From NCBI GenBank assembly GCA_031308135.1, contig JAHLJT010009419.1, forward strand, positions 37,131,221 through 37,195,220: 64,000 nt of DNA, in the 5' to 3' direction. The DNA comes from Acheta domesticus (taxonomy: Eukaryota; Arthropoda; Insecta; Orthoptera; Gryllidae). Shown here piece after piece: positions 1-61,181 of the stretch. Under the pieces are notes generated by a model. That model was not told where the DNA came from and made no database searches. It saw nothing but the letters and a program-made list of their open reading frames with translations. The position numbers and the translations under genes are program-made. How positions within the stretch are numbered: the first letter of the stretch is position 1; each line of letters opens with the position of its first letter.

Positions 1-1520
1 TCAGTTTTCTTGTGTGTGATTTAAAATGACTACCAAGTTGTTGAGGCCACAACAGTAATTGTGAATATAACATAGGATTTGACTCATTACCTACCTATAC
101 ATTAGAGATATGTAAACATCTTTCAAAAGTAATCCTTCAAATTAGGCATTTCTTGAAGTGTCCCCTAAAATTCAATAGGTAGTTTGTAGCTGAAATTTCT
201 TAATCAAGAACAATGATAAAATTAAGAGCTAGCATACATTTGTCCTTTTTGTTTTCTCCAAGGGTGCTTGATAAAATTGTTTGTAAACTAAAGAGTAAAT
301 TTGAAGTATTAATAAAGCTTATTAGCAAACAATGTGATAAACTCAAGTTGAAAAGAAGGTAGGTTATCTTCAATGAATGTGGAAAGTTACATTCAGTAGA
401 GTTTTCTTGGTACTTGAACAACAAGAGCAATTTTCTTATTTTAATGCTAATTAAACACTTACATTAAGTCTCTTCAATCTGTTTATTTTGAAATTGGTAA
501 CTGAGGCAAGGATTTTTTCATAGCCACTATCAGTTGTATAATTCCTATTCAATACATGTTTGTGTGTAAAACCTTTTAGTGAAACTTCCTAAAATCCTGC
601 CAGTGAAAAAATGAGACTTTTCCTCTTTTTGCCACACACACACACAAACACATATTTTAAAGTAAAGATGATCCCCAATGAATAGAAAATTGATTGGCTA
701 ATAATTTAACTGTATTTAATACATGTACCACTTCAATAACTAAAGTTTACTCGTTTCTTTCTTTCTGCCCTTCCTTCCTCTGAATATGGTACCACAATCG
801 CTTAACAGAAATGTTTCTCATTTACACTAGTGTATAGTTGAGGATGTATTAAAATGATACTATTTTGGCCTATCAAATGCCTTAGGATGTTGGTATTTGA
901 GGTTGTTCTAACAGGATAGTGCAGCTATTATCTTAACATTTGGAAACTGATGAAATAAATCATTAAATCTTTCAGTGTGTATGAATCTGACACAGAGAGA
1001 ATAACTGAAGAAACAAGTACGTAATTACAGTGCTGTGTGTAACTGCTTTATATCAGTAGCAAACGCGCCCGAATTGATGTTAGAATGTTGTTTTTACTGA
1101 AAAATAACCATTAATACTGTTTAAAATATAAGAGCGTTTGAAATAATTACTGCACCGTATCTGAGGTTTAACATAGTACCTGCACAAACGTGTTAATTAT
1201 ATTGAATGAATTATTCTAATGGTGTTAATGCCAGAGCCCCATCCCCTTAACTATAGCTTAAATCGGCGACGACAGACAAAAATTCGCGTCATCAGATTGA
1301 TCTGATAGTGAAAAGAAAGAAAATATTACGAACTTGGACACTTCACCGTCGTCGCCACGTTCTGTACCTTAAGCTGGCAAATCTAACTCTGCGTTACCCT
1401 CAAAATTTGGATTTGTAATCCGAAATTTTGTAAGCAATGCAGAGATAAGTGGAAATCTACAGAAAAAATGAAAGGAGTGTGACAGGAATAGTAACAGACA
1501 CAAAGTACATTTTTACGTAA

Positions 1521-1932
1521 TTTATTTTCAGTAAAATAGTAAGTACTACATACAATATCAAATCGAATAACTAGAACGCGTAATCAAGAATATTATGTAC
1601 AGATTTACAACGTTTCAATTTACATTTTTCATTGAATAACTATGTACAGATTAAGGAACTTCGCCGCTTCAGCTGTACAAAATTGTACATAAGTAGTATT
1701 TGATTCATAGGACTTATTTACAATAGACGGGGAAGAGCTCACAATAAATAATGCATACATATTTACAAATAACTTAAAAAACTATGTACAAATTACCACG
1801 CTTTGACACGTCAAAACTACATATTAACTATTTAACAATATGTACAAAATTGCCGTGATCCACAGCGATTGCCATTATCTCGACTGAATGGTTCGAGGTG
1901 CTAATGACATAAAGTTTCTTAAAGAATCCAGG
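1521..1932 (-). promoter_or_regulatory. 3' UTR with four Pumilio-type elements and polyA signal (unit 1)
   Basis: Downstream of the F-box stop codon the minus strand carries four exact UGUACAUA octamers, at 1839-1846, 1783-1790, 1641-1648 and 1594-1601. They match the PUF/Pumilio consensus UGUANAUA. Two further UGUACA cores lie near 1675-1691. An AATAAA hexamer (minus strand of 1521-1526) follows, with a GU-rich stretch about 20-30 nt beyond it, as at many animal cleavage sites. The octamers recur in the other full units. Seeing the motifs is direct; binding by Pumilio and post-transcriptional repression are inferred from the known family preference. Confidence 0.7.
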
Positions 1933-3383
1933 TCAGAAACGCACCGTCTTCTTGGGCTTTACTGTATGCTGTGCAGCAGTCCTACGCTTCTTGCAAGGTT
2001 GTCGATCAGCAGTCTCCCGCAGGCGAGAAGGGAAAGCTGCAACCAGACACATAGCGATTAATCACTAATAATGAATTTAAAAAAACAACACACACACACA
2101 CAAACAGAAAAGTCAGAAAAGTAGGAAGGGAGCATACCAGCAAGGCACGCTGTGGGCCGTACAGATACGGAGGGGGCGAACATTCGTTCATTCACCACGG
2201 GCCTCGTCCGGTCAGGAACAGCTGTGGACAGAAAGAAAGAACAACGAGTTAAACAATGTGTGTATTGAGAGAGGGTATCAGCTCGTGACACTCGCACTAG
2301 TGTTCCCTTCTTTACCCTCGATTAGGGCCACTCACCTGCAGTGTCCAGCTGGCGCGCGTGGGCGTTGACGCGGGCGAAGGCGTGGGTGTGGGCCTGGCTG
2401 GCCGTGGCGTATGCGCGGAGGTAGAGATGCGGGAGCATTCTGGGCGGGACGGGCAGGGCGCACAATGGGACGTGCCGCCTCCTGCAGGGCAAGAAATGCC
2501 CCGCGCCCTTCGCGGAACAACTGACGGCGGATCCGGCGTCGAAGCTCGGGATCTGCGCGGCAGCGCGCCAGCCAGCGCTGGCTAACCCCCGCCGCTGCCA
2601 CTAGCGAGGGCCCATCCAGCAGCCTGCGAACAGAAGCATAATTGTACAGTCATGCTAATCTAATATCAACAACACGTCACGTCAGATCAATAGGGAAAGA
2701 GACAATACTCGAATGAAGATGAGAAAACATTCTAGAGAAAAGTTAGGGAATGTAAGAACCGAACACATTTGTCACGTAATTCTGCTAGTACACTAATTGT
2801 TTAACCAAAGAAATGTTCACACTGAGCTACGTGGCTCAACCTGTTATTCGTGTTATGTGCCATTATAACATTGGAAAGATTCTCATCAAAATCTCAAACC
2901 CAACATATCGAACTTTTTGTTGTTGTTCTTTAAACACATCGTTATATCCGAACGTAACTAGGGAGAAACTATTTTCTGTGAAACCCATTTCATTACTATT
3001 CACGTAATACTCGAATAGTGGACATGAAACGTTCCCCTTAAGTTCAATTTTCCAAATTATTGCAGGCAAAATTTAAACTAATAAAATTAAAAGAACGGAA
3101 ATCCTATCGCAATATTACTTTGCTACGAGACCAAAAGCACCCAAATGTTCGGTTCACATTCAAGAAGTACATTAAACACTTTGATGGGCAAGTAAAGCTT
3201 TGTAACTTGTAATGAAATACACCACATAAAATTGTAACAAACATGTAAACGAGAAACTTACCTCAAAATACGGGATGCAATCTCCGCTGGTAAATATCCC
3301 ACTATATCCACTTGCGATGCTTCTTCCTCAAGTTCAGAGGAGTGCAAGTTCATGACGAACATAAAAGAGGAGAAAAATTCCAT
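1933..3383 (-). pseudogene. F-box protein gene, unit 1 (4-bp frameshift in exon 2)
   Basis: Minus-strand gene with exons 3262-3383, 2336-2623, 2138-2221 and 1933-2036. Splice signals are canonical: GTAAGT after exon 1, GTGAGT after exon 2, GTATGC after exon 3, each next exon preceded by a pyrimidine-rich AG acceptor. Exon 1 ends two bases into an Arg codon that exon 2 completes, which joins the two halves of an F-box. Exon 2 is 288 nt instead of 284 because CTGG is duplicated around 2393-2402, shifting the frame downstream of the F-box. Exons 1, 3 and 4 are intact. The F-box would survive, but the normal C-terminal tail would be lost. Because this unit is otherwise fairly clean, the change could be real, or it could be a read error. 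Confidence 0.8.
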
Positions 3384-3540
3384 TGCTGCCTCAAACTTCG
3401 AGTACTACACTGCAGGAGCTCAGATGCACACACAACAAGTCGCACAGACGCAGTAGTGACGCCCGTGTCACAAACGCCGCTTATAAGGCAAGCGAATGAT
3501 GACGTCATGGCGTGCCTTAGCGAGTCGCTGATTGGTTGGA
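3384..3540 (-). promoter_or_regulatory. F-box gene promoter (unit 1): CCAAT, CRE and TATA-like boxes
   Basis: Read on the minus strand toward the ATG at 3383, this stretch has a CCAAT box (ATTGG on plus, 3531-3535), a perfect cAMP-response-type palindrome TGACGTCA (3500-3507) and a TTATAAG TATA-like element (3480-3486), in that order and about 100-150 bp upstream of the start codon. The TGACGTCA palindrome recurs in the other full units at 8901, 14320, 19740, 25139, 30553 and 35956. Motif presence is seen; function is inferred from order, spacing and conservation. TGACGTCA binds CREB/ATF-type bZIP factors in animals. Confidence 0.55.
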
Positions 3541-6500
3541 AATCCAATGTGGCGGCCTGGTTTCATGGCGCCGTTTTGAGTTGACGCTGCCTAATACGCA
3601 TGCAGTCAACTTTCTGTCAATGTTCTCTTAACTTCAACAATGTACAACTGCAATAATTCTAGATATTGAAATCATTCATTTTTCTCGCCCACAAAACGAA
3701 GGGTTGGCTTCCGTTTTGCAAATCAGTTCAATCATCCCATAACTCTATTGTTATGGTTCGAAAACACACAATGTTTAGTATTTTCTGTACATTCTGTTAT
3801 TAGAAACATGGTTGGGTTTCCTGTTGTTCGTTCAGGTTACCGAGTTACGACAACTTTGTGCATCAAAATCTTCAACTTATACTTGGCTTTAAATTTGACA
3901 AGAAAAAGCACACGTGGGCCATTTCACATGCAGCAGCTACATTGCTTTACGTTTCGGGGGACGGGCATTTTACTTCTCGCCTTCCATATAACTTTTTACA
4001 CGCTATCAACAAAGCAGCTAATTTATTTACAACATTTCAATAAAATGAGACGCGTTGTATCCAGCGAGACATTATCTCCCATATCTCGAAACACTCGCGG
4101 AATGCACCTCCCAGGTCTCTATACAATTTACTTCCGTCTTTGCGGACGAATTGAATTTAAAATTACCGCTTCAATATTTACGTAGCGCCAACACTACATT
4201 ATGGCCATACACAAAATGTAAGTGCTGTGTGATTATGTCAAACAGATCACAACTACGCTGCAATAAATAACTTTCTTTGGAAGATGTACAAGTTCTGTGC
4301 ATTTCTTCATCTTAAAACGTTTTGCACGATTGTTTACAAACATGGATAAAATACTGATGGTTGCTGGTTCATGAGGAATTTACAAATCAATAGCTAGACT
4401 TTACAAGGAATTTGTGTGACGTAGCATTGTGATTTTGCAGATAAAATTATGTCAATAGTATGCTTCCTACCAGCCAGATTGTGAGTAGTAAGGTTACAGC
4501 AAATTAAACATCAATGTGTTTCAGTGGACGTGTCATTTGTGTTTAATGTTGTGAGGTTTGTTTTACCAAGATTCAACTTTGACGACGCAAACCGAGAAGT
4601 GTAGCCTATATCAAGGTAAGCAGGAAGCAGTGTTAAACCCTGATAAGACTAATAACTTAAAATTTAGTTACATCCTTTATCGCCCCCCCCCCATTGTTTT
4701 ATAGATGTGTGCAAGTTACTAAGTTTCTATGGCACCCTCTTTTCTTTCAGAATATGAGTATAGAAACTCAAGTTCAACAATTCTATTTTTGTAGTTCAAT
4801 AGTGATTTTCATAGAACTGTAATTTTAAGTTCATACGATCAACTTGACAAGACTCGAATTGGGAATGAGTGTTACACAGACATGTTCCCTCAACAATTCT
4901 GTAGTACTTCCATTCAGTTGACTCAGTGGAAATAGAACTACAGCCTTTACATTAGTGTCCTTATTTTAATACAATTTTCTTAAACTTCATAATAGATTGA
5001 AAGAAACAAAACATAGTTGTGAATAAAATGTAATTTTTACTACAAATGATTGCACTTTGAGATTGGTGTAAAAATTCATATTGAAGGGCTTATTTCCATG
5101 TGAACTCTGCTCAAGCAAGGAAATAATTAGTACTTTCACTTTGCCTGCTACAGCCCAGAAATCTTTAAAGTAAACAGAACCTCAATCAAACACTTTGCTT
5201 TGGACCTTCTCCAATGCTTTACTCACCTGTAATGTCATACTCTTCACTGACTTCAGAAAGCTATTAGATAGTAGACTAAATGATATTTTGAAAACTAAAC
5301 AAAATAACTTATAAGGACAAAGCTCTAAAAAAACTAGTACTTCCAGATGTTGGATTCATACTCTTCGTCATTTACATTGGTTTGTGAGAAATTAGAATTT
5401 AATTCAGTTTTCTTGTGTGTGATTTAAAATGACTACCAAGTTGTTGAGGCCACAACAGTAATTGTGAATATAACATAGGATTTGACTCATTACCTACCTA
5501 TACATTAGAGATATGTAAACATCTTTCAAAAGTAATCCTTCAAATTAGGCATTTCTTGAAGTGTCCCCTAAAATTCAATAGGTAGTTTGTAGCTGAAATT
5601 TCTTAATCAAGAACAATGATAAAATTAAGAGCTAGCATACATTTGTCCTTTTTGTTTTCTCCAAGGGTGCTTGATAAAATTGTTTGTAAACTAAAGAGTA
5701 AATTTGAAGTATTAATAAAGCTTATTAGCAAACAATGTGATAAACTCAAGTTGAAAAGAAGGTAGGTTATCTTCAATGAATGTGGAAAGTTACATTCAGT
5801 AGAGTTTTCTTGGTACTTGAACAACAAGAGCAATTTTCTTATTTTAATGCTAATTAAACACTTACATTAAGTCTCTTCAATCTGTTTATTTTGAAATTGG
5901 TAACTGAGGCAAGGATTTTTTCATAGCCACTATCAGTTGTATAATTCCTATTCAATACATGTTTGTGTGTAAAACCTTTTAGTGAAACTTCCTAAAATCC
6001 TGCCAGTGAAAAAATGAGACTTTTCCTCTTTTTGCCACACACACACACAAACACATATTTTAAAGTAAAGATGATCCCAATGAATAGAAAATTGATTGGC
6101 TATATAATTTAACTGTATTTAATACATGTACCACTTCAATAACTAAGTTTACTCGTTTCTTTCTTTCTGCCCTTCCTTCCTCTGAATATGGTACCACAAT
6201 CGCTTAACAGAAATGTTTCTCATTTACACTAGTGTATAGTTGAGGATGTATTAAAATGATACTATTTGGGCCTATCAAATGCCTTAGGATGTTGGTATTT
6301 GAGGTTGTTCTAACAGGATAGTGCAGCTATTATCTTAACATTTGGAAACTGATGAAATAAATCATTAAATCTTTCAGTGTGTATGAATCTGACACAGAGA
6401 GAATAACTGAAGAAAACAAGTACGTAATTACAGTGCTGTGTGTAACTGCTTTATATCAGTAGCAAACGCGCCCGAATTGATGTTAGAATGTTGTTTTTAC

Positions 6501-7337
6501 TGAAAATAACCATTAATACTGTTTAAAAATATAAGAGCGTTTGAAATAATTACTGCACCGTATCTGAGGTTTAACATAGTACCTGCACAAACGTGTTAAT
6601 TATATTGAATGAATTATTCTAATGGTGTTAATGCCAGAGCCCCATCCCCTTAACTATAGCTTAAATCGGCGACGACAGACAAAAATTCGCGTCATCAGAT
6701 TGATCTGATAGTGAAAAGAAAGAAAATATTACGAACTTGGACACTTCACCGTCGTCGCCACGTTCTGTACCTTAAGCTGGCAAATCTAACTCTGCGTTAC
6801 CCTCAAAATTTGGGATTTGTAATCCGAAATTTTGTAAGCAATGCAGAGATAAGTGGAAATCTACAGAAAAAATGAAAGGAGTGTGACAGGAATAGTAACA
6901 GACACAAAGTACATTTTTACGTAATTTATTTTCAGTAAAATAGTAAGTACTACATACAATATCAAATCGAATAACTAGAACGCGTAATCAAGAATATTAT
7001 GTACAGATTTACAACGTTTCAATTTACATTTTTCATTGAATAACTATGTACAGATTAAGGAACTTCGCCGCTTCAGCTGTACAAAATTGTACATAAGTAG
7101 TATTTGATTCATAGGACTTATTTACAATAGACGGGGAAGAGCTCACAATAAATAATGCATACATATTTACAAATAACTTAAAAAAACTATGTACAAATTA
7201 CCACGCTTTGACACGTCAAAACTACATATTAACTATTTAACAATATGTACAAAATTGCCGTGATCCACAGCGATTGCCATTATCTCGACTGAATGGTTCG
7301 AGGTGCTAATGACATAAAGTTTCTTAAAGAATCCAGG

Positions 7338-8784
7338 TCAGAAACGCACCGTCTTCCTTGGGCTTTACTGTATGCTGTGCAGCAGTCCTACGCTTCTTGC
7401 AAGGTTGTCGATCAGCAGTCTCCCGCAGGCGAGAAGGGAAAGCTGCAACCAGACACATAGCGATTAATCACTATAATGAATTAAAAAAACAACACACACA
7501 CACACAAACAGAAAGTCAGAAAAGTAGGAAGGGAGCATACCAGCAAGGCACGCTGTGGGCCGTACAGATACGGAGGGGGCGAACATTCGTTCATTCACCA
7601 CGGGCCTCGTCCGGTCAGGAACAGCTGTGGGACAGAAAGAAAGAACAACGAGTTAAACAATGTGTGTATTGAGAGAGGGTATCAGCTCGTGACACTCGCA
7701 CTAGTGTTCCCTTCTTTACCCTCGATTAGGGCCACTCACCTGCAGTGTCCAGCTGGCGCGCGTGGGCGTTGACGCGGGCGAAGGCGTGGGTGTGGGCCTG
7801 GCCGTGGCGTATGCGCGGAGGTAGAGATGCGGGAGCATTCTGGGCGGGACGGGCAGGGCGCACAATGGGACGTGCCGCCTCCTGCAGGGCAAGAAATGCC
7901 CCGCGCCCTTCGCGGAACAACTGACGGCGGATCCGGCGTCGAAGCTCGGGATCTGCGCGGCAGCGCGCCAGCCAGCGCTGGCTAACCCCCGCCGCTGCCA
8001 CTAGCGAGGGCCCATCCAGCAGCCTGCGAACAGAAGCATAATTGTACAGTCATGCTAATCTAATATCAACAACACGTCACGTCAGATCAATAGGGAAAGA
8101 GACAATACTCGAATGAAGATGAGAAAACATTCTAGAGAAAAGTTAGGGAATGTAAGAACCGAACACATTTGTCACGTAATTCTGCTAGTACACTAATTGT
8201 TTAACCAAAGAAATGTTCACACTGAGCTACGTGGCTCAACCTGTTATTCGTGTTATGTGCCATTATAACATTGGAAAGATTCTCATCAAAATCTCAAACC
8301 CAACATATCGAACTTTTTGTTGTTGTTCTTTAAACACATCGTTATATCCGAACGTAACTAGGGAGAAACTATTTTCTGTGAAACCCATTTCATTACTATT
8401 CACGTAATACTCGAATAGTGGACATGAAACGTTCCCCTTAAGTTCAATTTTCCAAATTATTGCAGGCAAAATTTAAACTAATAAAATTAAAAGAACGGAA
8501 ATCCTATCGCAATATTACTTTGCTACGAGACCAAAAGCACCCAAATGTTCGGTTCACATTCAAGAAGTACATTAAACACTTTGATGGGCAAGTAAAGCTT
8601 TGTAACTTGTAATGAAATACACCACATAAAATTGTAACAAACATGTAAACGAGAAACTTACCTCAAAATACGGGATGCAATCTCCGCTGGTAAATATCCC
8701 ACTATATCCACTTGCGATGCTTCTTCCTCAAGTTCAGAGGAGTGCAAGTTCATGACGAACATAAAAGAGGAGAAATAATTCCAT
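7338..8784 (-). pseudogene. F-box protein gene, unit 2 (late frameshift in exon 4)
   Basis: Exons 8662-8784, 7740-8023, 7541-7624 and 7338-7442. Exons 2 (284 nt) and 3 (84 nt) have consensus length and phase, so the F-box and central region are open. Exon 1 has one extra base between the first ATG and the second in-frame ATG. Initiation at the internal ATG (8762) would restore the 33 codons before the splice. Exon 4 has one extra C in the run near 7355 that shifts the last few codons, so the KTVRF end and stop are lost as written. Both indels sit in short runs in a unit with many non-coding indels, so the gene may be functional and mis-called. Confidence 0.75.
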
Positions 8785-11700
8785 TGCTGCCTCAAACTTC
8801 GAGTACTACACTGCAGGAGCTCAGATGCACACACAACAAGTCGCACAGACGCAGTAGTGACGCCCGTGTCACAAACGCCGCTTATAAGGCAAGCGAATGA
8901 TGACGTCATGGCGTGCCTTAGCGAGTCGCTGATTGGTTGGAAATCCAATGTGGCGGCCTGGTTTCATGGCGCCGTTTTGAGTTGACGCTGCCTAATACGC
9001 ATGCAGTCAACTTTCTGTCAATGTTCTCTTAACTTCAACAATGTACAACTGCAATAATTCTAGATATTGAAATCATTCATTTTTCTCGCCCACAAAACGA
9101 AGGGTTGGCTTCCGTTTTGCAAATCAGTTCAATCATCCCATAACTCTATTGTTATGGTTCGAAAACACACAATGTTTAGTATTTTCTGTACATTCTGTTA
9201 TTAGAAACATGGTTGGGTTTCCTGTTGTTCGTTCAGGTTACCGAGTTACGACAACTTTGTGCATCAAAATCTTCAACTTATACTTGGCTTTAAATTTGAC
9301 AAGAAAAAGCACACGTGGGCCATTTCACATGCAGCAGCTACATTGCTTTACGTTTCGGGGGACGGGCATTTTACTTCTCGCCTTCCATATAACCTTTTTA
9401 CACGCTATCAACAAAGCAGCTAATTTTATTTACAACATTTCAATAAAATGAGACGCGTTGTATCCAGCGAGACATTATCTCCCATATCTCGAAACACTCG
9501 CGGAATGCACCTCCCAGGTCTCTATACAATTTACTTCCGTCTTTGCGGACGAATTGAATTTAAAATTACCGCTTCAATATTTACGTAGCGCCAACACTAC
9601 ATTATGGCCATACACAAAATGTAAGTGCTGTGTGATTATGTCAAACAGATCACAACTACGCTGCAATAAATAACTTTCCTTTGGAAGATGTACAAGTTCT
9701 GTGCATTTCTTCATCTTAAAACGTTTTGCACGATTGTTTACAAACATGGATAAAATACTGATGGTTGCTGTTCATGAGGAATTTACAAATCAATAGCTAG
9801 ACTTTACAAGGAATTTGTGGTGACGTAGCATTGTGATTTTGCAGATAAAATTATGTCAATAGTATGCTTCCTACCAGCCAGATTGTGAGTAGTAAGGTTA
9901 CAGCAAATTAAACATCAATGTGTTTCAGTGGACGTGTCATTTGTGTTTAATGTTGTGAGGTTTGTTTTACCAAGATTCAACTTTGACGACGCAAACCGAG
10001 AAGTGTAGCCTATATCAAGGTAAGCAGGAAGCAGTGTTTAAACCCTGATAAGACTAATAACTTAAAATTTAGTTACATCCTTTATCGCCCCCCCCCCCAT
10101 TGTTTTATAGATGTGTGCAAGTTACTAAGTTTCTATGGCACCCTCTTTTCTTTCAGAATATGAGTATAGAAACTCAAGTTCAACAATTCTATTTTTGTAG
10201 TTCAATAGTGATTTTCATAGAACTGTAATTTTAAGTTCATACGATCAACTTGACAAGACTCGAATTGGGAATGAGTGTTACACAGACATGTTCCCTCAAC
10301 AATTCTGTAGTACTTCCATTCAGTTGACTCAGTGGAAATAGAACTACAGCCTTTACATTAGTGTCCTTATTTTAATACAATTTTCTTAAACTTCATAATA
10401 GATTGAAAGAAACAAAACATAGTTGTGAATAAAATGTAATTTTTACTACAAATGATTGCACTTTGAGATTGGGTGTAAAAATTCATATTGAAGGGCTTAT
10501 TTCCAATGGAACTCTGCTCAAGCAAGGAAATAATTAGTACTTTCACTTTTGCCTGCTACAGCCCAGAAATCTTTAAAGTAAACAGAACCTCAATCAAACA
10601 CTTTGCTTTGGACCTTCTCCAATGCTTTACTCACACTGTAATGTCATACTCTTCACTGACTTCAGAAAGCTATTAGATAGTAGACTAAATGATATTTTGA
10701 AAACTAAACAAAATAACTTATAAGGACAAAGCTCTAAAAAAACTAGTACTTCCAGATGTTGGATTCATACTCTTCGTCATTTACATTGGTTTGTGAGAAA
10801 TTAGAATTTAATTCAGTTTTCTGTGTGTGATTTAAAATGACTACCAAGTTGTTGAGGCCACAACAGTAATTGTGAATATAACATAGGATTTGACTCATTA
10901 CCTACCTATACATTAGAGATATGTAAACATCTTTCAAAGTAATCCTTCAAATTAGGCATTTCTTGAAGTGTCCCCTAAAATTCAATAGGTAGTTTGTAGC
11001 TGAAATTTCTTAATCAAGAACAATGTATAAAATTAAGAGGCTAGCATACATTTGTCCTTTTGTTTTCTCCAAGGGTGCTTGATAAAATTGTTTGTAAACT
11101 AAAGAGTAAATTTGAAGTATTAATAAAGCTTATTAGCAAACAATGTGATAAACTCAAGTTGAAAAGAAGGTAGGTTATCTTCAATGAATGTGGAAAGTTA
11201 CATTCAGTAGAGTTTTCTTGGTACTTTGAACAACAAGAGCAATTTTCTTATTTTAATGCTAATTAAACACTTACATTAAGTCTCTTCAATCTGTTTATTT
11301 TGAAATTGGTAACTGAGGCAAGGATTTTTTCATAGCCACTATCAGTTGTATAATTCCTATTCAATACATGTTTGTGTGTAAAACCTTTAGTGAAACTTCC
11401 TAAAATCCTGCCAGTGAAAAAATGAGACTTTCCTCTTTTTGCCACACACACACACAAACACATATTTTAAAGTAAAGATGATCCCCAATGAATAGAAAAT
11501 TGATTGGCTAATAATTTAACTGTATTTAATACATGTACCACTTCAATAACTAAAGTTTACTCGTTTCTTTCTTTCTGCCCTTCCTTCCTCTGAATATGGT
11601 ACCACAATCGCTTAACAGAAATGTTTCTCATTTACACTAGTGTATAGTTGAGGATGTATTAAAATGATACTATTTGGGCCTATCAAATGCCTTAGGATGT

Positions 11701-25022: not shown

Positions 25023-28000
25023 TGCTGCCTCAAACTTCGAGTACTACACTGCAGGAGCTCAGATGCACACACAACAAGTCGCACAGACGCAGTAGTGACG
25101 CCCGTGTCACAAACGCCGCTTATAAGGCAAGCGAATGATGACGTCATGGCGTGCCTTAAGCGAGTCGCTGATTGGTTGGAAATCCAATGTGGCGGCCTGG
25201 TTTCATGGCGCCGTTTTGAGTTGACGCTGCCTAATACGCATGCAGTCAACTTTCTGTCAATGTTCTCTTAACTTCAACAATGTACAACTGCAATAATTCT
25301 AGATATTGAAATCATTCATTTTTCTCGCCCACAAAACGAAGGGTTGGCTTCCGTTTTGCAAATCAGTTCAATCATCCCATAACTCTATTGTTATGGTTCG
25401 AAAACACACAATGTTTAGTATTTTCTGTACATTCTGTTATTAGAAACATGGTTGGGTTTCCTGTTGTTCGTTCAGGTTACCGAGTTACGACAACTTTGTG
25501 CATCAAAATCTTCAACTTATACTTGGCTTTAAATTTGACAAGAAAAAGCACACGTGGGCCATTTCACATGCAGCAGCTACATTGCTTTACGTTTCGGGGG
25601 ACGGGCATTTTACTTCTCGCCTTCCATATAACTTTTTACACGCTATCAACAAAGCAGCTAATTTATTTACAACATTTCAATAAAATGAGACGCGTTGTAT
25701 CCAGCGAGACATTATCTCCCATATCTCGAAACACTCGCGGAATGCACCTCCCAGGTCTCTATATACAATTTACTTCCGTCTTTGCGGACGAATTGAATTT
25801 AAAATTACCGCTTCAATATTTACGTAGCGCCAACACTACATTATGGCCATACACAAAATGTAAGTGCTGTGTGATTATGTCAAACAGATCACAACTACGC
25901 TGCAATAAATAACTTTCTTTGGAAGATGTACAAGTTCTGTGCATTTCTTCATCTTAAAACGTTTTGCACGATTGTTTACAAACATGGATAAAATACTGAT
26001 GGTTGCTGGTTCATGAGGAATTTACAAATCAATAGCTAGACTTTACAAGGAATTTTGTGTGACGTAGCATTGTGATTTTGCAGATAAAATTATGTCAATA
26101 GTATGCTTCCTACCAGCCAGATTGTGAGTAGTAAGGTTACAGCAAATTAAACATCAATGTGTTTCAGTGGACGTTGTCATTTGTGTTAATGTTGTGAGGT
26201 TTGTTTTACCAAGATTCAACTTGACGACGCAAACCGAGAAGTGTAGCCTATATCAAGGTAAGCAGGAAGCAGTGTTAAACCCTGATAAGACTAATAACTT
26301 AAAAATTTAGTTACATCCTTTATCGCCCCCCCCCCATTGTTTTATAGATGTGTGCAGTTACTAAGTTTCTATGGCACCCTCTTTTCTTTCAGAATATGAG
26401 TATAGAAACTCAAGTTCAACAATTCTATTTTTGTAGTTCAATAGTGATTTTCATAGAACTGTAATTTTAAGTTCATACGATCAACTTGACAAGACTCGAA
26501 TTGGGAATGAGTGTTACACAGACATGTTCCCTCAACAATTCTGTAGTACTTCCATTCAGTTGACTCAGTGGAAATAGAACTACAGCCTTTACATTAGTGT
26601 CCTTATTTTAATACAATTTTCTTAAACTTCATAATAGATTGAAAGAAACAAAACATAGTTGTGAATAAAATGTAATTTTTACTACAAATGATTGCACTTT
26701 GAGATTGGTGTAAAAATTCATATTGAAGGGCTTATTTCCATGTGAACTCTGCTCAAGCAAGGAAATAATTAGTACTTTTCACTTTGCCTGCTACAGCAGC
26801 CCAGAAATCTTTAAAGTAAACAGAACCTCAATCAAACACTTTGCTTTGGACCTTCTCCAATGCTTTACTCACCTGTAATGTCATACTCTTCACTGACTTC
26901 AGAAAGCTATTAGATAGTAGACTAAATGATATTTTGAAAACTAAACAAAATAACTTATAAGGACAAAGCTCTAAAAAAACTAGTACTTCCAGATGTTGGA
27001 TTCATACTCTTCGTCATTTACATTGGTTTGTGAGAAATTAGAATTTAATTCAGTTTTCTTGTGTGTGATTTAAAATGACTACCAAGTTGTTGAGGCCACA
27101 ACAGTAATTGTGAATATAACATAGGATTTGACTCATTACCTACCTATACATTAGAGATATGTAAACATCTTTCAAAAGTAATCCTTCAAATTAGGCATTT
27201 CTTGAAGTGTCCCCTAAAATTCAATAGGTAGTTTGTAGCTGAAATTTCTTAATCAAGAACAATGATAAAATTAAGAGCTAGCATACATTTGTCCTTTTTG
27301 TTTTCTCCAAGGGTGCTTGATAAAATTGTTTGTAAACTAAAGAGTAAATTTGAAGTATTAATAAAGCTTATTAGCAAACAATGTGATAAACTCAAGTTGA
27401 AAAGAAGGTAGGTTATCTTCAATGAATGTGGAAAGTTACATTCAGTAGAGTTTTCTTGGTACTTGAACAACAAGAGCAATTTTCTTATTTTAATGCTAAT
27501 TAAACACTTACATTAAGTCTCTTCAATCTGTTTATTTTGAAATTGGTAACTGAGGCAAGGATTTTTTCATAGCCACTATCAGTTGTATAATTCCTATTCA
27601 ATACATGTTTGTGTGTAAAACCTTTTAGTGAAACTTCCTAAAATCCTGCCAGTGAAAAAATGAGACTTTTCCTCTTTTTGCCACACACACACACAAACAC
27701 ATATTTTAAAGTAAAGATGATCCCCAATGAATAGAAAATTGATTGGCTAATAATTTAACTGTATTTAATACATGTACCACTTCAATAACTAAAGTTTACT
27801 CGTTTCTTTCTTTCTGCCCTTCCTTCCTCTGAATATGGTACCACAATCGCTTAACAGAAATGTTTCTCATTTACACTAGTGTATAGTTGAGGATGTATTA
27901 AAATGATACTATTTGGGCCTATCAAATGCCTTAGGATGTTGGTATTTGAGGTTGTTCTAACAGGATAGTGCAGCTATTATCTTAACATTTGGAAACTGAT

Positions 28001-28981
28001 GAAATAAATCATTAAATCTTTCAGTGTGTATGAATCTGACACAGAGAGAATAACTGAAGAAACAAGTACGTAATTACAGTGCTGTGTGTAACTGCTTTAT
28101 ATCAGTAGCAAACGCGCCCGAATTGATGTTAGAATGTTGTTTTTACTGAAAAATAACCATTAATACTGTTTAAAATATAAGAGCGTTTGAAATAATTACT
28201 GCACCGTATCTGAGGTTTAACATAGCACCTGCACAAACGTGTTAATTATATTGAATGAATTATTCTAATGGTGTTAATGCCAGAGCCCCATCCCCTTAAC
28301 TATAGCTTAAATCGGCGACGACAGACAAAAATTCGCGTCATCAGATGATCTGATAGTGAAAAGAAAGAAAATATTACGAACTTGGACACTTCACCGTCGT
28401 CGCCACGTTCTGTACCTTAAGCTGGCAAATCTAACTCTGCGTTACCCTCAAAATTTGGGATTTGTAATCCGAAATTTTGTAAGCAATGCAGAGATAATTG
28501 GAAATCTACAGAAAAAATGAAAGGAGTGTGACAGGAATAGTAACAGACACAAAGTACATTTTTACGTAATTTATTTTCAGTAAAATAGTAAGTACTACAT
28601 ACAATATCAAATCGAATAACTAGAACGCGTAATCAAGAATATTATGTACAGATTTACAACGTTTCAATTTACATTTTTCATTGAATAACTATGTACAGAT
28701 TAAGGAACTTCGCCGCTTCAGCTGTACAAAATTGTACATAAGTAGTATTTGATTCATAGGACTTATTTACAATAGACGGGGAAGAGCTCACAATAAATAA
28801 TGCATACATATTTACAAATAACTTAAAAAACTATGTACAAATTACCACGCTTTGACACGTCAAAACTACATATTAACTATTTAACAATATGTACAAAATT
28901 GCCGTGATCCACAGCGATTGCCATTATCTCGACTGAATGGTTCGAGGTGCTAATGACATAAAGTTTCTTAAAGAATCCAGG

Positions 28982-30436
28982 TCAGAAACGCACCGTCTTC
29001 TTGGGCTTTACTGTATGCTGTGCAGCAGTCCTACGCTTCTTGCAAGGTTGACGATCAGCAGTCTCCCGCAGGCGAGAAGGGAAAGCTGCAACCAGACACA
29101 TAGCGATTAATCACTAATAATGAATTTAAAAAAACAACACACACACACACACAAACAGAAAAGTCAGAAAAGTAGGAAGGGAGCTTACCAGCAAGGCACG
29201 CTGTGGGCCGTACAGATACGGAGGGGGCGAACATTCGTTCATTCACCACGGGCCTCGTCCGGTCAGGAACAGCTGTGGACAGAAAGAAAGAACAACGAGT
29301 TAAACAATGTGTGTATTGAGAGAGGGTATCAGCTCGTGACACTCGCACTAGTGTTCCCTTCTTTACCCTCGATTAGGGCCACTCACCTGCAGTGTCCAGC
29401 TGGCGCGCGTGGGCGTTGACGCGGGCGAAGGCGTGGGTGTGGGTGTGGGCCTGGCCGTGGCGTATGCGCGGAGGTAGAGATGCGGGAGCATTCTGGGCGG
29501 GACGGGCAGGGCGCACAATGGGACGTGCCGCCTCCTGCAGGGCAAGAAATGCCCCGCGCCCTTCGCGGAACAACTGACGGCGGATCCGGCGTCGAAGCTC
29601 GGGATCTGCGCGGCAGCGCGCCAGCCAGCGCCGGCTAACCCCCGCCGCTGCCACTAGCGAGGGCCCATCCAGCAGCCTGCGAACAGAAGCAGAATTGTAC
29701 AGTCATGCTAATCTAATATCAACAACACGTCACGTCAGATCAATAGGGAAAGAGACAATACTCGAATGAAGATGAGAAAACATTCTAGAGAAAAGTTAGG
29801 GAATGTAAGAACCGAACACATTTGTCACGTAATTCTGCTAGTACACTAATGGTTTAACCAAAGAAATGTTCACACTGAGCTACGTGGCTCAACCTGTTAT
29901 TCGTGTTATGTGCCATTATAACATTGGAAAGATTCTCATCAAAATCTCAAACCCAACATATCGAACTTTTTGTTGTTGTTCTTTAAACACATCGTTATAT
30001 CCGAACGTAACTAGGGAGAAACTATTTTCTGTGAAACCCATTTCATTACTATTCACGTAATACTCGAATAGTGGACATGAAACGTTCCCCTTAAGTTCAA
30101 TTTTCCAAATTATTGCAGGCAAAATTTAAACTAATAAAATTAAAAGAACGGAAATCCTATCGCAATATTACTTTGCTACGAGACCAAAAGCACCCAAATG
30201 TTCGGTTCACATTCAAGAAGTACATTAAACACTTTGATGGGCAAGTAAAGCTTTGTAACTTGTAATGAAATACACCACATAAAATTGTAACAAACATGTA
30301 AACGAGAAACTTACCTCAAAATACGGGATGCAATCTCCGCTGGTAAATATCCCACTATATCCACTTGCGATGCTTCTTCCTCAAGTTCAGAGGAGTGCAA
30401 GTTCATGACGAACATAAAAGAGGAGAAAAATTCCAT
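28982..30436 (-). CDS. F-box protein gene, unit 6 (intact, 199 residues)
   Basis: Four exons, 30315-30436, 29387-29676, 29189-29272 and 28982-29085, splice in frame to 600 nt. The first ATG (30436) has a favourable context (G at -3, G at +4); further in-frame ATGs follow at codons 8 and 11. Residues about 28-72 form an F-box: IVGYLPAEI at the start, LLDGPSLVAAAGVS in the middle, RRWLARC with its conserved Trp, then PELRRRI. F-box domains bind Skp1 and make the protein the substrate adaptor of an SCF ubiquitin ligase. The remainder is Arg/Ala/Pro-rich, with a His-Thr stretch lengthened here by one in-frame HT (6-bp GT-rich expansion). The tail has KKRR and KPKK clusters and ends in KTVRF. The substrate is unknown. 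I do not recognise an orthologue. Confidence 0.85.
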
Positions 30437-33400
30437 TGCTGCCTCAAACTTCGAGTACTACACTGCAGGAGCTCAGATGCACACACAACAAGTCGCACAG
30501 ACGCAGTAGTGACGCCCGTGTCACAAACGCCGCTTATAAGGCAAGCGAATGATGACGTCATGGCGTGCCTTAGCGCGTCGCTGATTGGTTGGAAATCCAA
30601 TGTGGCGGCCTGGTTTCATGGCGCCGTTTTGAGTTGACGCTGCCTAATACGCATGCAGTCAACTTTCTGTCAATGTTCTCTTAACTTCAACAATGTACAA
30701 CTGCAATAATTCTAGATATTGAAATCATTCATTTTTCTCGCCCACAAAACGAAGGGTTGGCTTCCGTTTTGCAAATCAGTTCAATCATCCCATTACTCTA
30801 TTGTTATGGTTCGAAAACACACAATGTTTAGTATTTTCTGTACATTCTGTTATTAGAAACATGGTTGGTTTTCCTGCTGTTCGTTCATGTTACCGAGTTA
30901 CGACAACTTTGTGCATCAAAATCTTCAACTTATACTTGGCTTTAAATTTGACAAGAAAAAGCACACGTGGGCCATTTCACATGCAGCAGCTACATTGCTT
31001 TACGTTTCGGGGGACGGGCATTTTACTTCTCGCCTTCCATATAACTTTTTACACGCTATCAACAAAGCAGCTAATTTATTTACAACATTTCAATAAAATG
31101 AGACGCGTTGTATCCAGCGAGACATTATCTCCCATATCTCGAAACACTCGCGGAATGCACCTCCCAGGTCTCTATACAATTTACTTCCGTCTTTGCGGAC
31201 GAATTGAATTTAAAATTACCGCTTCAATATTTACGTAGCGCCAACACTACATTATGGCCATACACAAAATGTAAGTGCTGTGTGATTATGTCAAACAGAT
31301 CACAACTACGCTGCAATAAATAACTTTCTTTGGAAGATGTACAAGTTCTGTGCATTTCTTCATCTTAAAACGTTTTGCACGATTGTTTACAAACATGGAT
31401 AAAATACTGATGGTTGCTGGTTCATGAGGAATTTACAAATCAATAGCTAGACTTTACAAGGAATTTGTGTGACGTAGCATTGTGATTTTGCAGATAAAAT
31501 TATGTCAATAGTATGCTTCCTACCAGCCAGATTGTGAGTAGTAAGGTTACAGCAAATTAAACATCAATGTGTTTCAGTGGACGTGTCATTTGTGTTTAAT
31601 GTTGTGAGGTTTGTTTTACCAAGATTCAACTTTGACGACGCAAACCGAGAAGTGTAGCCTATATCAAGGTAAGCAGGAAGCAGTGTTAAACCCTGATAAG
31701 ACTAATAACTTAAAATTTAGTTACATCGTTTATCGCCCCCCTCCCATTGTTTTATAGATGTGTGCAAGTTACTAAGTTTCTATGGCACCCTCTTTTCTTT
31801 CAGAATATGAGTACAGAAACGCAAGTTTAACAATTCTATTTTTGTAGTTCAACAGTGATTTTCATAGAACTGTAATTTTAAGTTCATACGATCAACTTGA
31901 CAAGACTCGAATTGGGAATGAGTGTTACACAGACATGTTCCCTCAACAATTCTCTAGTACTTCCATTCAGTTGACTCAGTGGAAATAGAACTACAGCCTT
32001 TACATTAGTGTCCTTATTTTAATACAATTTTCTTAAACTTCATAATAGATTGAAAGAAACAAAACATAGTTGTGAATAAAATGTAATTTTTACTACAAAT
32101 GATTGCACTTTGAGATTGGTGTAAAAATTCATATTGAAGGGCTTATTTCCATGTGAACTCTGCTCAAGCAAGGAAATAATTAGTACTTTCACTTTGCCTG
32201 CTACAGCCCAGAAATCTTTAAAGTAAACAGAACCTCAATCAAACACTTTGCTTTGGACCTTCTCCAATGCTTTACTCACCTGTAATGTCATACTCTTCAC
32301 TGACTTCAGAAAGCTATTAGATAGTAGACTAAATGATATTTTGAAAACTAAACAAAATAACTTATAAGGACAAAGCTCTAAAAAAACTAGTACTTCCAGA
32401 TGTTGGATTCATACTCTTCGTCATTTACATTGGTTTGTGAGAAATTAGAATTTAATTCAGTTTTCTTGTGTGTGATTTAAAATGACTACCAAGTTGTTGA
32501 GGCCACAACAGTAATTGTGAATATAACATAGGATTTTACTCATTACCTACCTATACATTAGAGATATGTAAACATCTTTCAAAAGTAATCCTTCAAATTA
32601 GGCATTTCTTGAAGTGTCCCCTAAAATTCAATAGGTAGTTTGTAGCTGAAATTTCTTAATCAAGAACAATGATAAAATTAAGAGCTAGCATACATTTGTC
32701 CTTTTTGTTTTCTCCAAGGGTGCTTGATAAAATTGTTTGTAAACTAAAGAGTAAATTTGAAGTATTAATAAAGCTTATTAGCAAACAATGTGATAAACTC
32801 AAGTTGAAAAGAAGGTAGGTTATCTTCAATGAATGTGGAAAGTTACATTCAGTAGAGTTTTCTTGGTACTTGAACAACAAGAGCAATTTTCTTATTTTAA
32901 TGCTAATTAAACACTTACATTAAGTCTCTTCAATCTGTTTATTTTGAAATTGGTAACTGAGGCAAGGATTTTTTCATAGCCACTATCAGTTGTATAATTC
33001 CTATTCAATACATGTTTGTGTGTAAAACCTTTTAGTGAAACTTCCTAAAATCCTGCCAGTGAAAAAATGAGACTTTTCCTCTTTTTGCCACACACACACA
33101 CAAACACATATTTTAAAGTAAAGATGATCCCCAATGAATAGAAAATTGATTGGCTAATAATTTAACTGTATTTAATACATGTACCACTTCAATAACTAAA
33201 GTTTACTCGTTTCTTTCTTTCTGCCCTTCCTTCCTCTGAATATGGTACCACAATCGCTTAACAGAAATGTTTCTCATTTACACTAGTGTATAGTTGAGGA
33301 TGTATTAAAATGATACTATTTGGGCCTATCAAATGCCTTAGGATGTTGGTATTTGAGGTTGTTCTAACAGGATAGTGCAGCTATTATCATAACATTTGGA

Positions 33401-33978
33401 AACTGATGAAATAAATCATTAAATCTTTCAGTGTGTATGAATCTGACACAGAGAGAATAACTGAAGAAACAAGTACGTAATTACAGTGCTGTGTGTAACT
33501 GCTTTATATCAGTAGCAAACGCGCCCGAATTGATGTTAGAATGTTGTTTTTACTGAAAAATAACCATTAATACTGTTTAAAATATAAGAGCGTTTGAAAT
33601 AATTACTGCACCGTATCTGAGGTTTAACATAGTACCTGCACAAACGTGTTAATTATATTGAATGAATTATTCTAATGGTGTTAATGCCAGAGCCCCATCC
33701 CCTTAACTATAGCTTAAATCGGCGACGACAGACAAAAATTCGCGTCATCAGATTGATCTGATAGTGAAAAGAAAGAAAATATTACGAACTTGGACACTTC
33801 ACCGTCGTCGCCACGTTCTGTACCTTAAGCTGGCAAATCTAACTCTTGCGTTACCCTCAAAATTTGGGATTTGTAATCCGAAATTTTGTAAGCAATGCAG
33901 AGATAAGTGGAAATCTACAGAAAAAATGAAAGGAGTGTGACAGGAATAGTAACAGACACAAAGTACATTTTTACGTAA

Positions 33979-34390
33979 TTTATTTTCAGTAAAATAGTAA
34001 GTACTACATACAATATCAAATCGAATAACTAGAACGCGTAATCAAGAATATTATGTACAGATTTACAACGTTTCAATTTACATTTTTCATTGAATAACTA
34101 TGTACAGATTAAGGAACTTCGCCGCTTCAGCTGTACAAAATTGTACATAAGTAGTATTTGATTCATAGGACTTATTTACAATAGACGGGGAAGAGCTCAC
34201 AATAAATAATGCATACATATTTACAAATAACTTAAAAAACTATGTACAAATTACCACGCTTTGACACGTCAAAACTACATATTAACTATTTAACAATATG
34301 TACAAAATTGCCGTGATCCACAGCGATTGCCATTATCTCGACTGAATGGTTCGAGGTGCTAATGACATAAAGTTTCTTAAAGAATCCAGG
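33979..34390 (-). promoter_or_regulatory. 3' UTR with four UGUACAUA elements and polyA signal (unit 7)
   Basis: Same arrangement as in unit 1 behind an intact gene. UGUACAUA octamers read on the minus strand at 34297-34304, 34241-34248, 34099-34106 and 34052-34059, and AATAAA at 33979-33984. About 70-75 nt separate the first and last pairs nearest the ends, and one 135-nt gap lies between them. Confidence 0.7.
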
Positions 34391-35839
34391 TCAGAAACGC
34401 ACCGTCTTCTTGGGCTTTACTGTATGCTGTGCAGCAGTCCTACGCTTCTTGCAAGGTTGACGATCAGCAGTCTCCCGCAGGCGAGAAGGGAAAGCTGCAA
34501 CCAGACACATAGCGATTAATCACTAATAATGAATTTAAAAAAACAACACACACACACACACAAACAGAAAAGTCAGAAAAGTAGGAAGGGAGCTTACCAG
34601 CAAGGCACGCTGTGGGCCGTACAGATACGGAGGGGGCGAACATTCGTTCATTCACCACGGGCCTCGTCCGGTCAGGAACAGCTGTGGACAGAAAGAAAGA
34701 ACAACGAGTTAAACAATGTGTGTATTGAGAGAGGGTATCAGCTCGTGACACTCGCACTAGTGTTCCCTTCTTTACCCTCGATTAGGGCCACTCACCTGCA
34801 GTGTCCAGCTGGCGCGCGTGGGCGTTGACGCGGGCGAAGGCGTGGGTGTGGGCCTGGCCGTGGCGTATGCGCGGAGGTAGAGATGCGGGAGCATTCTGGG
34901 CGGGACGGGCAGGGCGCACAATGGGACGTGCCGCCTCCTGCAGGGCAAGAAATGCCCCGCGCCCTTCGCGGAACAACTGACGGCGGATCCGGCGTCGAAG
35001 CTCGGGATCTGCGCGGCAGCGCGCCAGCCAGCGCCGGCTAACCCCCGCCGCTGCCACTAGCGAGGGCCCATCCAGCAGCCTGCGAACAGAAGCAGAATTG
35101 TACAGTCATGCTAATCTAATATCAACAACACGTCACGTCAGATCAATAGGGAAAGAGACAATACTCGAATGAAGATGAGAAAACATTCTAGAGAAAAGTT
35201 AGGGAATGTAAGAACCGAACACATTTGTCACGTAATTCTGCTAGTACACTAATTGTTTAACCAAAGAAATGTTCACACTGAGCTACGTGGCTCAACCTGT
35301 TATTCGTGTTATGTGCCATTATAACATTGGAAAGATTCTCATCAAAATCTCAAACCCAACATATCGAACTTTTTGTTGTTGTTCTTTAAACACATCGTTA
35401 TATCCGAACGTAACTAGGGAGAAACTATTTTCTGTGAAACCCATTTCATTACTATTCACGTAATACTCGAATAGTGGACATGAAACGTTCCCCTTAAGTT
35501 CAATTTTCCAAATTATTGCAGGCAAAATTTAAACTAATAAAATTAAAAGAACGGAAATCCTATCGCAATATTACTTTGCTACGAGACCAAAAGCACCCAA
35601 ATGTTCGGTTCACATTCAAGAAGTACATTAAACACTTTGATGGGCAAGTAAAGCTTTGTAACTTGTAATGAAATACACCACATAAAATTGTAACAAACAT
35701 GTAAACGAGAAACTTACCTCAAAATACGGGATGCAATCTCCGCTGGTAAATATCCCACTATATCCACTTGCGATGCTTCTTCCTCAAGTTCAGAGGAGTG
35801 CAAGTTCATGACGAACATAAAAGAGGAGAAAAATTCCAT
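34391..35839 (-). CDS. F-box protein gene, unit 7 (intact, 197 residues)
   Basis: Exons 35718-35839 (122 nt), 34796-35079 (284), 34598-34681 (84) and 34391-34494 (104) total 594 nt with no frame break; this is the reference copy. Introns are 638, 114 and 103 nt. The F-box spans residues about 28-72 and is built across intron 1 (Arg41 split 2+1), so no single open reading frame shows it. Exon 2 is very GC-rich beside AT-rich introns. Residues 179-193 hold two basic clusters (KKRR, KPKK), a plausible bipartite nuclear signal. The last five residues, KTVRF, fit the RVxF docking motif for protein phosphatase 1. The donor after exon 3 is GTAAGC in units 6 and 7, closer to consensus than GTATGC in most other units. 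Role inferred: SCF E3 ligase adaptor. Confidence 0.87.
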
Positions 35840-35995
35840 TGCTGCCTCAAACTTCGAGTACTACACTGCAGGAGCTCAGATGCACACACAACAAGTCGCA
35901 CAGACGCAGTAGTGACGCCCGTGTCACAAACGCCGCTTATAAGGCAAGCGAATGATGACGTCATGGCGTGCCTTAGCGAGTCGCTGATTGGTTGG
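35840..35995 (-). promoter_or_regulatory. F-box gene promoter (unit 7)
   Basis: CCAAT (ATTGG on plus, 35987-35991), the TGACGTCA palindrome (35956-35963) and a TTATAAG element (35936-35942) precede the intact gene on the minus strand. Unit 6 has the same set at 30584, 30553 and just below it, with one substitution nearby. Confidence 0.55.
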
Positions 35996-35999
35996 AAAT

Positions 36000-37861
36000 C
36001 CAATGTGGCGGCCTGGTTTCATGGCGCCGTTTTGAGTTGACGCTGCCTAATACGCATGCAGTCAACTTTCTGTCAATGTTCTCTTAACTTCAACAATGTA
36101 CAACTGCAATAATTCTAGATATTGAAATCATTCATTTTTCTCGCCCACAAAACGAAGGGTTGGCTTCCGTTTTGCAAATCAGTTCAATCATCCCATAACT
36201 CTATTGTTATGGTTCGAAAACACACAATGTTTAGTATTTTCTGTACATTCTGTTATTAGAAACATGGTTGGGTTTCCTGTTGTTCGTTCAGGTTACCGAG
36301 TTACGACAACTTTGTGCATCAAAATCTTCAACTTATACTTGGCTTTAAATTTGACAAGAAAAAGCACACGTGGGCCATTTCACATGCAGCAGCTACATTG
36401 CTTTACGTTTCGGGGGACGGGCATTTTACTTCTCGCCTTCCATATAACTTTTTACACGCTATCAACAAAGCAGCTAATTTATTTACAACATTTCAATAAA
36501 ATGAGACGCGTTGTATCCAGCGAGACATTATCTCCCATATCTCGAAACACTCGCGGAATGCACCTCCCAGGTCTCTATACAATTTACTTCCGTCTTTGCG
36601 GACGAATTGAATTTAAAATTACCGCTTCAATATTTACGTAGCGCCAACACTACATTATGGCCATACACAAAATGTAAGTGCTGTGTGATTATGTCAAACA
36701 GATCACAACTACGCTGCAATAAATAACTTTCTTTGGAAGATGTACAAGTTCTGTGCATTTCTTCATCTTAAAACGTTTTGCACGATTGTTTACAAACATG
36801 GATAAAATACTGATGGTTGCTGGTTCATGAGGAATTTACAAATCAATAGCTAGACTTTACAAGGAATTTGTGTGACGTAGCATTGTGATTTTGCAGATAA
36901 AATTATGTCAATAGTATGCTTCCTACCAGCCAGATTGTGAGTAGTAAGGTTACAGCAAATTAAACATCAATGTGTTTCAGTGGACGTGTCATTTGTGTTT
37001 AATGTTGTGAGGTTTGTTTTACCAAGATTCAACTTTGACGACGCAAACCGAGAAGTGTAGCCTATATCAAGGTAAGCAGGAAGCAGTGTTAAACCCTGAT
37101 AAGACTAATAACTTAAAATTTAGTTACATCGTTTATCGCCCCCCCCCCCCATTGTTTTATAGATGTGTGCAAGTTACTAAGTTTCTATGGCACCCTCTTT
37201 TCTTTCAGAATATGAGTACAGAAACGCAAGTTTAACAATTCTATTTTTGTAGTTCAACAGTGATTTTCATAGAACTGTAATTTTAAGTTCATACGATCAA
37301 CTTGACAAGACTCGAATTGGGAATGAGTGTTACACAGACATGTTCCCTCAACAATTCTGTATTACTTCCATTCAGTTGACTCAGTGGAAATAGAACTACA
37401 GCCTTTACATTAGTGTCCTTATTTTAATACAATTTTCTTAAACTTCATAATAGATTGAAAGAAACAAAACATAGTTGTGAATAAAATGTAATTTTTACTA
37501 CAAATGATTGCACTTTGAGATTGGTGTAAAAATTCATATTGAAGGGCTTATTTCCATGTGAACTCTGCTCAAGCAAGGAAATAATTAGTACTTTCACTTT
37601 GCCTGCTACAGCCCAGAAATCTTTAAAGTAAACAGAACCTCAATCAAACACTTTGCTTTGGACCTTCTCCAATGCTTTACTCACCTGTAATGTCATACTC
37701 TTCACTGACTTCAGAAAGCTATTAGATAGTAGACTAAATGATATTTTGAAAACTAAACAAAATAACTTATAAGGACAAAGCTCTAAAAAAACTAGTACTT
37801 CCAGATGTTGGATTCATACTCTTCGTCATTTACATTGGTTTGTGAGAAATTAGAATTTAAT
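36000..37861. other. Spacer of unit 7 (representative): no gene recognised
   Basis: The spacer beyond the promoter carries open frames of 60-145 codons on both strands that recur in the clean units, but none shows codon bias, a recognisable domain or splice-linked extension, and indels in sister units break them freely. It does contain plus-strand splice-like signals (AAG|GTAAGC near 37070 and a TTTCTTTCAG acceptor near 37208) and a C-run at about 37139-37150 whose length varies between units. Confidence 0.5.
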
Positions 37862-38437
37862 TCAGTTTTCTTGTGTGTGATTTAAAATGACTACCAAGTT
37901 GTTGAGGCCACAACAGTAATTGTGAATATAACATAGGATTTGACTCATTACCTACCTATACATTAGAGATATGTAAACATCTTTCAAAAGTAATCCTTCA
38001 AATTAGGCATTTCTTGAAGTGTCCCCTAAAATTCAATAGGTAGTTTGTAGCTGAAATTTCTTAATCAAGAACAATGATAAAATTAAGAGCTAGCATACAT
38101 TTGTCCTTTTTGTTTTCTCCAAGGGTGCTTGATAAAATTGTTTGTAAACTAAAGAGTAAATTTGAAGTATTAATAAAGCTTATTAGCAAACAATGTGATA
38201 AACTCAAGTTGAAAAGAAGGTAGGTTATCTTCAATGAATGTGGAAAGTTACATTCAGTAGAGTTTTCTTGGTACTTGAACAACAAGAGCAATTTTCTTAT
38301 TTTACTGCTAATTAAACACTTACATTAAGTCTCTTCAATCTGTTTATTTTGAAATTGGTAACCGAGGCAAGGATTTTTTCACAGCCACTATCAGTTGTAT
38401 AATTCCTTTTCAATACATGTTTTTTGTAGTACCTTTT
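37862..38437 (-). repeat. Partial eighth unit at the array edge
   Basis: Matches the first ~570 bp of the other units almost exactly up to about 38300, then accumulates substitutions (for example near 38305, 38362 and 38408) and stops matching at about 38437. It contains only spacer sequence downstream of the F-box gene, so no gene. Confidence 0.9.
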
Positions 38438-38439
38438 AG

Positions 38440-41521: not shown

Positions 41522-41606
41522 ATTACTTGTTACAGGCGTATTAAATATTTTTTTAAATGTATACAATGCAAACATAAACTAATTCATTATATATCTTTGT
41601 TTTGTT

Positions 41607-61179: not shown

Positions 61180-61181
61180 TA

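Follow-up and report, generated by a model that had tools for sequence, protein, structure and literature searches.

Whether a gene-bearing DNA segment that recurs head to tail in a cricket genome represents a genuine array, how long such an array may have existed and whether its copies still code for a protein are the questions raised by a region of the Acheta domesticus genome. The region analysed here, called the window throughout, comprises 64,000 bases with a G+C content of 38.7% and starts within the tandem array. Examination of its units, of the F-box gene that they carry, of the spacer between genes and of the array's decayed edge allowed us to weigh four alternative or additional readings against that of an old array of coding units.

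Extent and uniformity of the array

The commonest spacing between repeated 20-mers in the window is 5403 bases. A BLASTN search with unit 7 as query recovered six more full-length copies arranged head to tail, which are 98.86-99.58% identical to it when indels are counted. Seven complete units of about 5.4 kb span positions 45-37905 and are flanked by part-units at both ends; since the array extends beyond the left edge of the window, seven units are a minimum. The limits and general condition of the units are as follows.

1-44: terminal part of one more unit, truncated where the window begins; positions 1-42 match the end of unit 7 (BLASTN)
45-5447: unit 1, low in private differences, exon 2 with a 4-base insertion
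5448-10855: unit 2, private indels, frame disrupted close to the end of exon 4
10856-16268: unit 3, many private indels, broken frame as assembled
16269-21686: unit 4, many private differences, broken frame as assembled
21687-27093: unit 5, many private differences, broken frame as assembled
27094-32500: unit 6, intact frame, two additional residues in exon 2
32501-37905: unit 7, intact frame, used as the reference unit
37906-38439: partial unit 8, with which the uniform array ends on the right (BLASTN)

The 20-mer spacing and the BLASTN matches bear out the first-pass annotation, which had described a tandem array of about 5.4 kb with at least seven copies, and the range of identity over full units agrees with its statement that similarity is very high, introns included. 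The tandem array is confirmed as real, and chance is no rival to it. When substitutions only are considered, identity between units amounts to 99.15-99.93%, and the 21 possible pairs differ by 4 to 46 substitutions and by 4 to 67 gap events per ~5.4 kb. The clean units 1, 6 and 7 show mutual differences of 13-20 substitutions per ~5.4 kb (0.2-0.4%).

Other features were observed in the remainder of the window. Remnants of a copia-like reverse transcriptase (RVT_2), separated by G+C-rich short repeats, occupy 45812-47780; of two pieces, one exceeds the cut-off. Fragments of a LINE-like reverse transcriptase (RVT_1), again with one of two above the cut-off, lie at 59887-61408. A single cytochrome P450 exon (E = 3e-7) is located on the minus strand at 48953-49231. 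Repeated sequences include a direct duplicate at 41194-41522 and 44687-45003 (92% identical), two palindromic elements, related to each other and each about 240 bases long, at 52088-52331 and 56775-57018, perhaps small DNA transposons, and a tandem repeat with a 142-base period and 2.3 copies at 62306-62625. A search of the window against Rfam gave no match at the gathering score, and no tRNA was found in it.

The F-box gene and its relatives

The minus strand of each unit shows the architecture of a single F-box gene with four exons and GT..AG introns. In unit 7, the four spliced exons code for a protein of 197 amino acids; as had been pointed out previously, a gene split in this way is missed by simple scanning for open reading frames. 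Its parts are listed below in the order of transcription.

35935-35992, minus strand: promoter-like block with CCAAT (35986-35992), CRE TGACGTCA (35956-35963) and TATA-like site (35935-35944)
35718-35839, minus strand: exon 1, whose start codon at 35839 is backed by the Gryllus protein
34796-35079, minus strand: exon 2, most of the F-box and the conserved HAFARVNAHARxL stretch
34598-34681, minus strand: exon 3, weak similarity to Gryllus
34391-34494, minus strand: exon 4, basic tail and stop codon
33979-33984, minus strand: poly-A signal AATAAA downstream of the gene

In a tblastn search with the Gryllus protein, similarity reaches the ATG at 35839. A 190-amino acid form beginning at an inner ATG was the query for the Pfam, solved-structure and protein searches and for the comparison with Gryllus. 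Residues 23-67 of this form match the F-box-like family PF12937 (E = 9e-8) with 32.2 bits against a curated cut-off of 24.3, in support of the F-box identity assigned by the first-pass annotation; PF00646, at 18.7 bits, stays under its cut-off of 20.5. No further Pfam family scored above its cut-off with the 190-amino acid form, WD40, LRR and other substrate-binding domains being absent at that level, so the product is described as an 'F-box only' protein. Solved structures yielded three matches up to E = 10, among which the sole F-box protein, FBXW7 (E = 0.3), ranks below an unrelated enzyme (0.17). A cyclin-binding RxL-like motif and a nuclear signal in the basic tail were considered as mere candidates.

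Upstream of the unit 7 ATG, the CCAAT box, a perfect CRE and the TATA-like site follow each other in the usual order. On the basis of these motifs, we presume the three sites to form a putative promoter and the AATAAA to be part of a putative terminator. The CCAAT, CRE, TATA-like, ATG, stop-codon and poly-A sites are unchanged at the aligned positions in all seven units. Splice sites are also conserved, the exceptions being insertions of a single base in units 2 and 5 and a variant of the third donor, which reads GTATGC in units 1-4 and GTAAGC in units 6-7.

Relatives of this protein are few. When 5.8 billion proteins were searched at E <= 1, two of the 1111 candidates proved to be relatives, P0001 and P0002, and a profile search at E <= 10 (7991 candidates) added solely P0003 among the matches listed. 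The latter matches the window's own exon 2, with 98.9% identity to unit 2 and a different start residue. P0002 is GBIM_12026 of Gryllus bimaculatus, the only named relative found. It is 61% identical to exon 1 of unit 7 over 41 residues, has the same exon 1/2 join and shares the F-box and the HAFARVNAHARxL stretch, similarity in exon 3 being weak. GBIM_12026 can be regarded as a homologous F-box protein which has the exon 1/2 join and the post-F-box stretch in common with the array gene and differs from it in overall identity (57-60%) and in the C-terminus of its gene model. A single-sequence structure model of P0002 had a mean pLDDT of 49, too poor for use. A viral origin was also considered and rejected, a scan of viral contigs with P0002 having given ten pattern matches and no relatives.

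P0001 matches exon 2 at 82% and, in addition, agrees in 22 of 37 residues with the translation of the intron that precedes it. This sequence sits on three contigs, none of them exceeding 5265 bases or about the length of one unit, a size that would be in keeping with the assembly of a tandem repeat and is no more than suggestive. Short-read assemblies often collapse recent duplicates, according to the excerpted text of PMC6690552, so arrays of this type are easily missed. Two relatives only, apart from P0003, among the matches listed suggest that the gene may be lineage-restricted and offer no known orthologue from which function could be read. In the open-access literature, an F-box array in an insect genome was not found among the matches listed. 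The available passages of PMC7728225, in which 'F-box' and 'tandem duplication' occur together, deal with the duplication of BRO genes and with one lone F-box gene of a poxvirus carried by a wasp, and the main text of PMC8203789, a source on crickets, contains neither 'F-box' nor 'tandem'.

The CpG-starved spacer

The sequence between consecutive genes has a very different composition from the genes themselves, as illustrated by the following spacer.

31908-33207: CpG-starved spacer separating the genes of units 6 and 7, with 2 CpG against 30.7 expected

The seven spacers, of ~1.1-1.3 kb each and with limits picked after the CpG profile had been seen, contain 1-2 CpG against 27-31 expected (observed/expected ratio 0.03-0.07) and, being near-copies of one another, count as one observation rather than seven. 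The corresponding ratio is 1.08 in the gene, 1.07 on the promoter side and 1.0 in the coding sequence, and the lowest value among 481 overlapping 1-kb windows of the flanks is 0.42. In 1000 shuffles of one spacer, the number of CpG never fell below 16. This association of a CpG-starved spacer with a CpG-normal gene was not reported earlier. Its simplest reading, as suggested by the composition, is germline methylation restricted to the spacer. In crickets, as stated in the accessible portion of PMC8203789, CpG depletion is taken as a mark of methylated genes, and species-specific genes are found more often in the high-CpG class.

The same mark could be interpreted in another way, namely that the spacer is the methylated body of a divergent plus-strand transcript and each unit a two-gene cassette, a reading which is compatible with the explanation preferred below and which we rate as rather unlikely. 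Besides the low CpG ratio that marks methylated cricket genes in the passages of PMC8203789 mentioned above, it could draw on a candidate plus-strand donor at 37072, an acceptor at 37208 and an AATAAA at 33410. Against it, AATAAA also occurs earlier, at 37480 and 38172, and ten smaller open reading frames of the unit (eight on the plus strand and two on the minus strand) had no Pfam match at E <= 0.1. A plus-strand frame of 171 amino acids (36126-36638), the candidate tried as a second gene, was rejected on the grounds that it has no Pfam match and that P0005, a unit variant described below, breaks and alters the frame.

Condition, age and kind of the array

The gene architecture is present in all seven units, and the frame is open as assembled only in units 6 and 7. 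The first-pass description of complete transcription units stands for the promoter-like sites, the four exons and the spacer of the whole units, with the qualification that, as assembled, five of the seven reading frames are not intact. In unit 1, the 4-base insertion in exon 2 shifts the frame and truncates the protein after the F-box; this insertion is possibly genuine. Close to the same site, unit 6 carries 6 extra bases that keep the frame, and this spot of exon 2 therefore seems to be length-variable.

The remaining frame breaks, in units 2-5, are of another nature. Private differences are densest at ~6-27 kb (1-15 per kb, against 0-7 per kb elsewhere), and units 2-5 together have 172 private columns, of which 119 are indels, as compared with 17 in unit 6 (10 of them substitutions), six in unit 1 and five in unit 7. 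Judging from this look of an unpolished noisy-long-read consensus, the frame breaks of units 2-5 are probably errors. Consensus of this type arises where short reads cannot be placed. Variants common to at least two units occupy 22 columns, and ten of these are confined to units 2-5, so the differences of those units are not wholly independent; the ten columns could be recurrent errors or real shared indels. Eight substitutions, one of which changes the third donor site, split units 1-5 from units 6-7, and a substitution at 35035 (R to Q, in the F-box) together with a 2-base indel splits units 1-4 from units 5-7. These are paralogue variants ordered along the array. Two further unit variants, absent from the seven units, are found on other contigs: P0004 (two contigs, neither longer than 3264 bases) has a residue at the stop codon position of all aligned window units, and P0005 (one contig of 2692 bases) differs from the window units at several places.

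The condition of the copies bears on the possibility of a mostly non-functional macrosatellite, in which the repeat would be kept as DNA and the gene would be a passenger with few intact copies, such as units 6 and 7. Five of seven frames broken as assembled would agree with it, as would the frameshift of unit 1, a unit in which other private differences are few. We nevertheless consider it unlikely, given that the breaks of units 2-5 fall within the indel-rich block with its unpolished appearance, that the promoter-like, stop and poly-A sites are retained in every unit and that the protein is conserved as far as Gryllus.

The age of the array is informed by a decayed copy located directly to the right of partial unit 8.

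38455-38691: first piece of the decayed copy, agreeing with 32521-32758 in 207 of 238 columns (BLAST E-value 2e-78)
38725-38930: second piece of the decayed copy, agreeing with 33803-34011 in 156 of 213 columns (score 123 against at most 38 in 200 shuffles)

The copy is collinear with the unit, its two pieces having 87% and 73% identity and about 1 kb having been lost between them. As it is far more divergent than units 1, 6 and 7 are among themselves, the duplication appears to predate the present uniformity by far, as would be expected of an old array whose units are homogenised by turnover; a single edge copy carries this argument, and that copy could instead be a separate, earlier duplicate. 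The first-pass annotation had reasoned that such uniformity calls for either concerted evolution or recency, an alternative that we retain, and its preference for a recent origin is not borne out by the edge copy. Nothing that was observed speaks for meiotic drive or dosage selection. A recent burst of amplification, driven by dosage selection or germline conflict, would account for the very high identity of introns as well as exons and for the small distances between the clean units, and a precedent is provided by Drosophila, where co-amplified genes often descend from meiosis genes and are expressed in the testis (PMC6690552, in the part available). The collinear decayed copy points to an older duplication, however, and 'F-box' appears nowhere in the main text of that paper; a burst seems to us distinctly unlikely. 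An assembly artefact, in which one or two real units were multiplied by the assembler, would fit the richness in private differences at 6 to 27 kb relative to the ends (that part was built differently and its copy number is uncertain) and the ten columns confined to units 2-5, but is very improbable, since most differences are private to a single unit, so that the assembler did not simply copy units 2-5 from one another. Neither these mostly private errors nor the order of the paralogue variants would be expected from an assembler loop, and the decayed copy adjoining the array and the unit variants on other contigs also speak against an artefact.

The explanation that we prefer is that of a long-lived coding macrosatellite, each 5.4-kb unit of which would be a full transcription unit for a short F-box-only protein; that the array is jointly real, old, uniform through turnover and coding is in our judgement fairly likely. 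Unequal exchange and gene conversion would hold the units uniform while edge copies decay, the spacer would be methylated in the germline and the gene and its promoter would be unmethylated. Intact copies would yield an adaptor of an SCF ubiquitin ligase, with a Skp1-binding F-box, a basic tail and perhaps a nuclear location, and the output of this adaptor would scale with the number of active copies. Taken alone, the predicted SCF-adaptor role is somewhat favoured, and dosage as the reason for the upkeep of the array is less likely than not. The most complete version, a long-lived macrosatellite of the cricket lineage with a lineage-restricted F-box adaptor in an unmethylated compartment and a germline-methylated spacer in each unit, forming a dosage-tunable ubiquitin-ligase locus that is possibly germline-specific and in conflict with another locus, is highly unlikely to hold in all its parts.

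Protein-coding macrosatellites are, as far as is known, best studied in mammals. The human macrosatellites RS447 (USP17, 4.7 kb) and D4Z4 (DUX4, 3.3 kb) have a protein-coding gene in each kb-scale tandem unit, an organisation matched by the gene architecture of the cricket units, and RS447 also encodes a protein of the ubiquitin pathway, as described in the excerpted text of PMC3599962. The present array differs from both in its insect host, in the three introns of its gene and in coding for an F-box adaptor instead of a deubiquitinase or a homeobox protein. Near-identical kb-scale units in head-to-tail order, one of the features of a coding macrosatellite, were found, and this is the closest known kind, the likeness being structural while the usual description includes copy-number polymorphism. 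Histone and rDNA arrays are likewise composed of uniform kb-scale units under concerted evolution; they contain genes for mass products, in contrast to the single, poorly known, regulatory-type gene of this array. Among insects, Stellate of Drosophila is an example of multicopy protein genes. The co-amplified genes of the Drosophila X and Y are also multicopy protein genes, some of them in tandem like those reported here (PMC6690552, in the part available). As for differences, the cricket sequence gives no sign of sex linkage, testis expression, small RNAs or a suppressor array. It can be assigned to a known general kind, of which the host and the gene are unusual representatives. Crickets are laboratory animals, and an insect array of ubiquitin-pathway genes with a decayed edge and a sharp CpG boundary in each unit would make the relation between turnover, DNA methylation and gene dosage testable in them.
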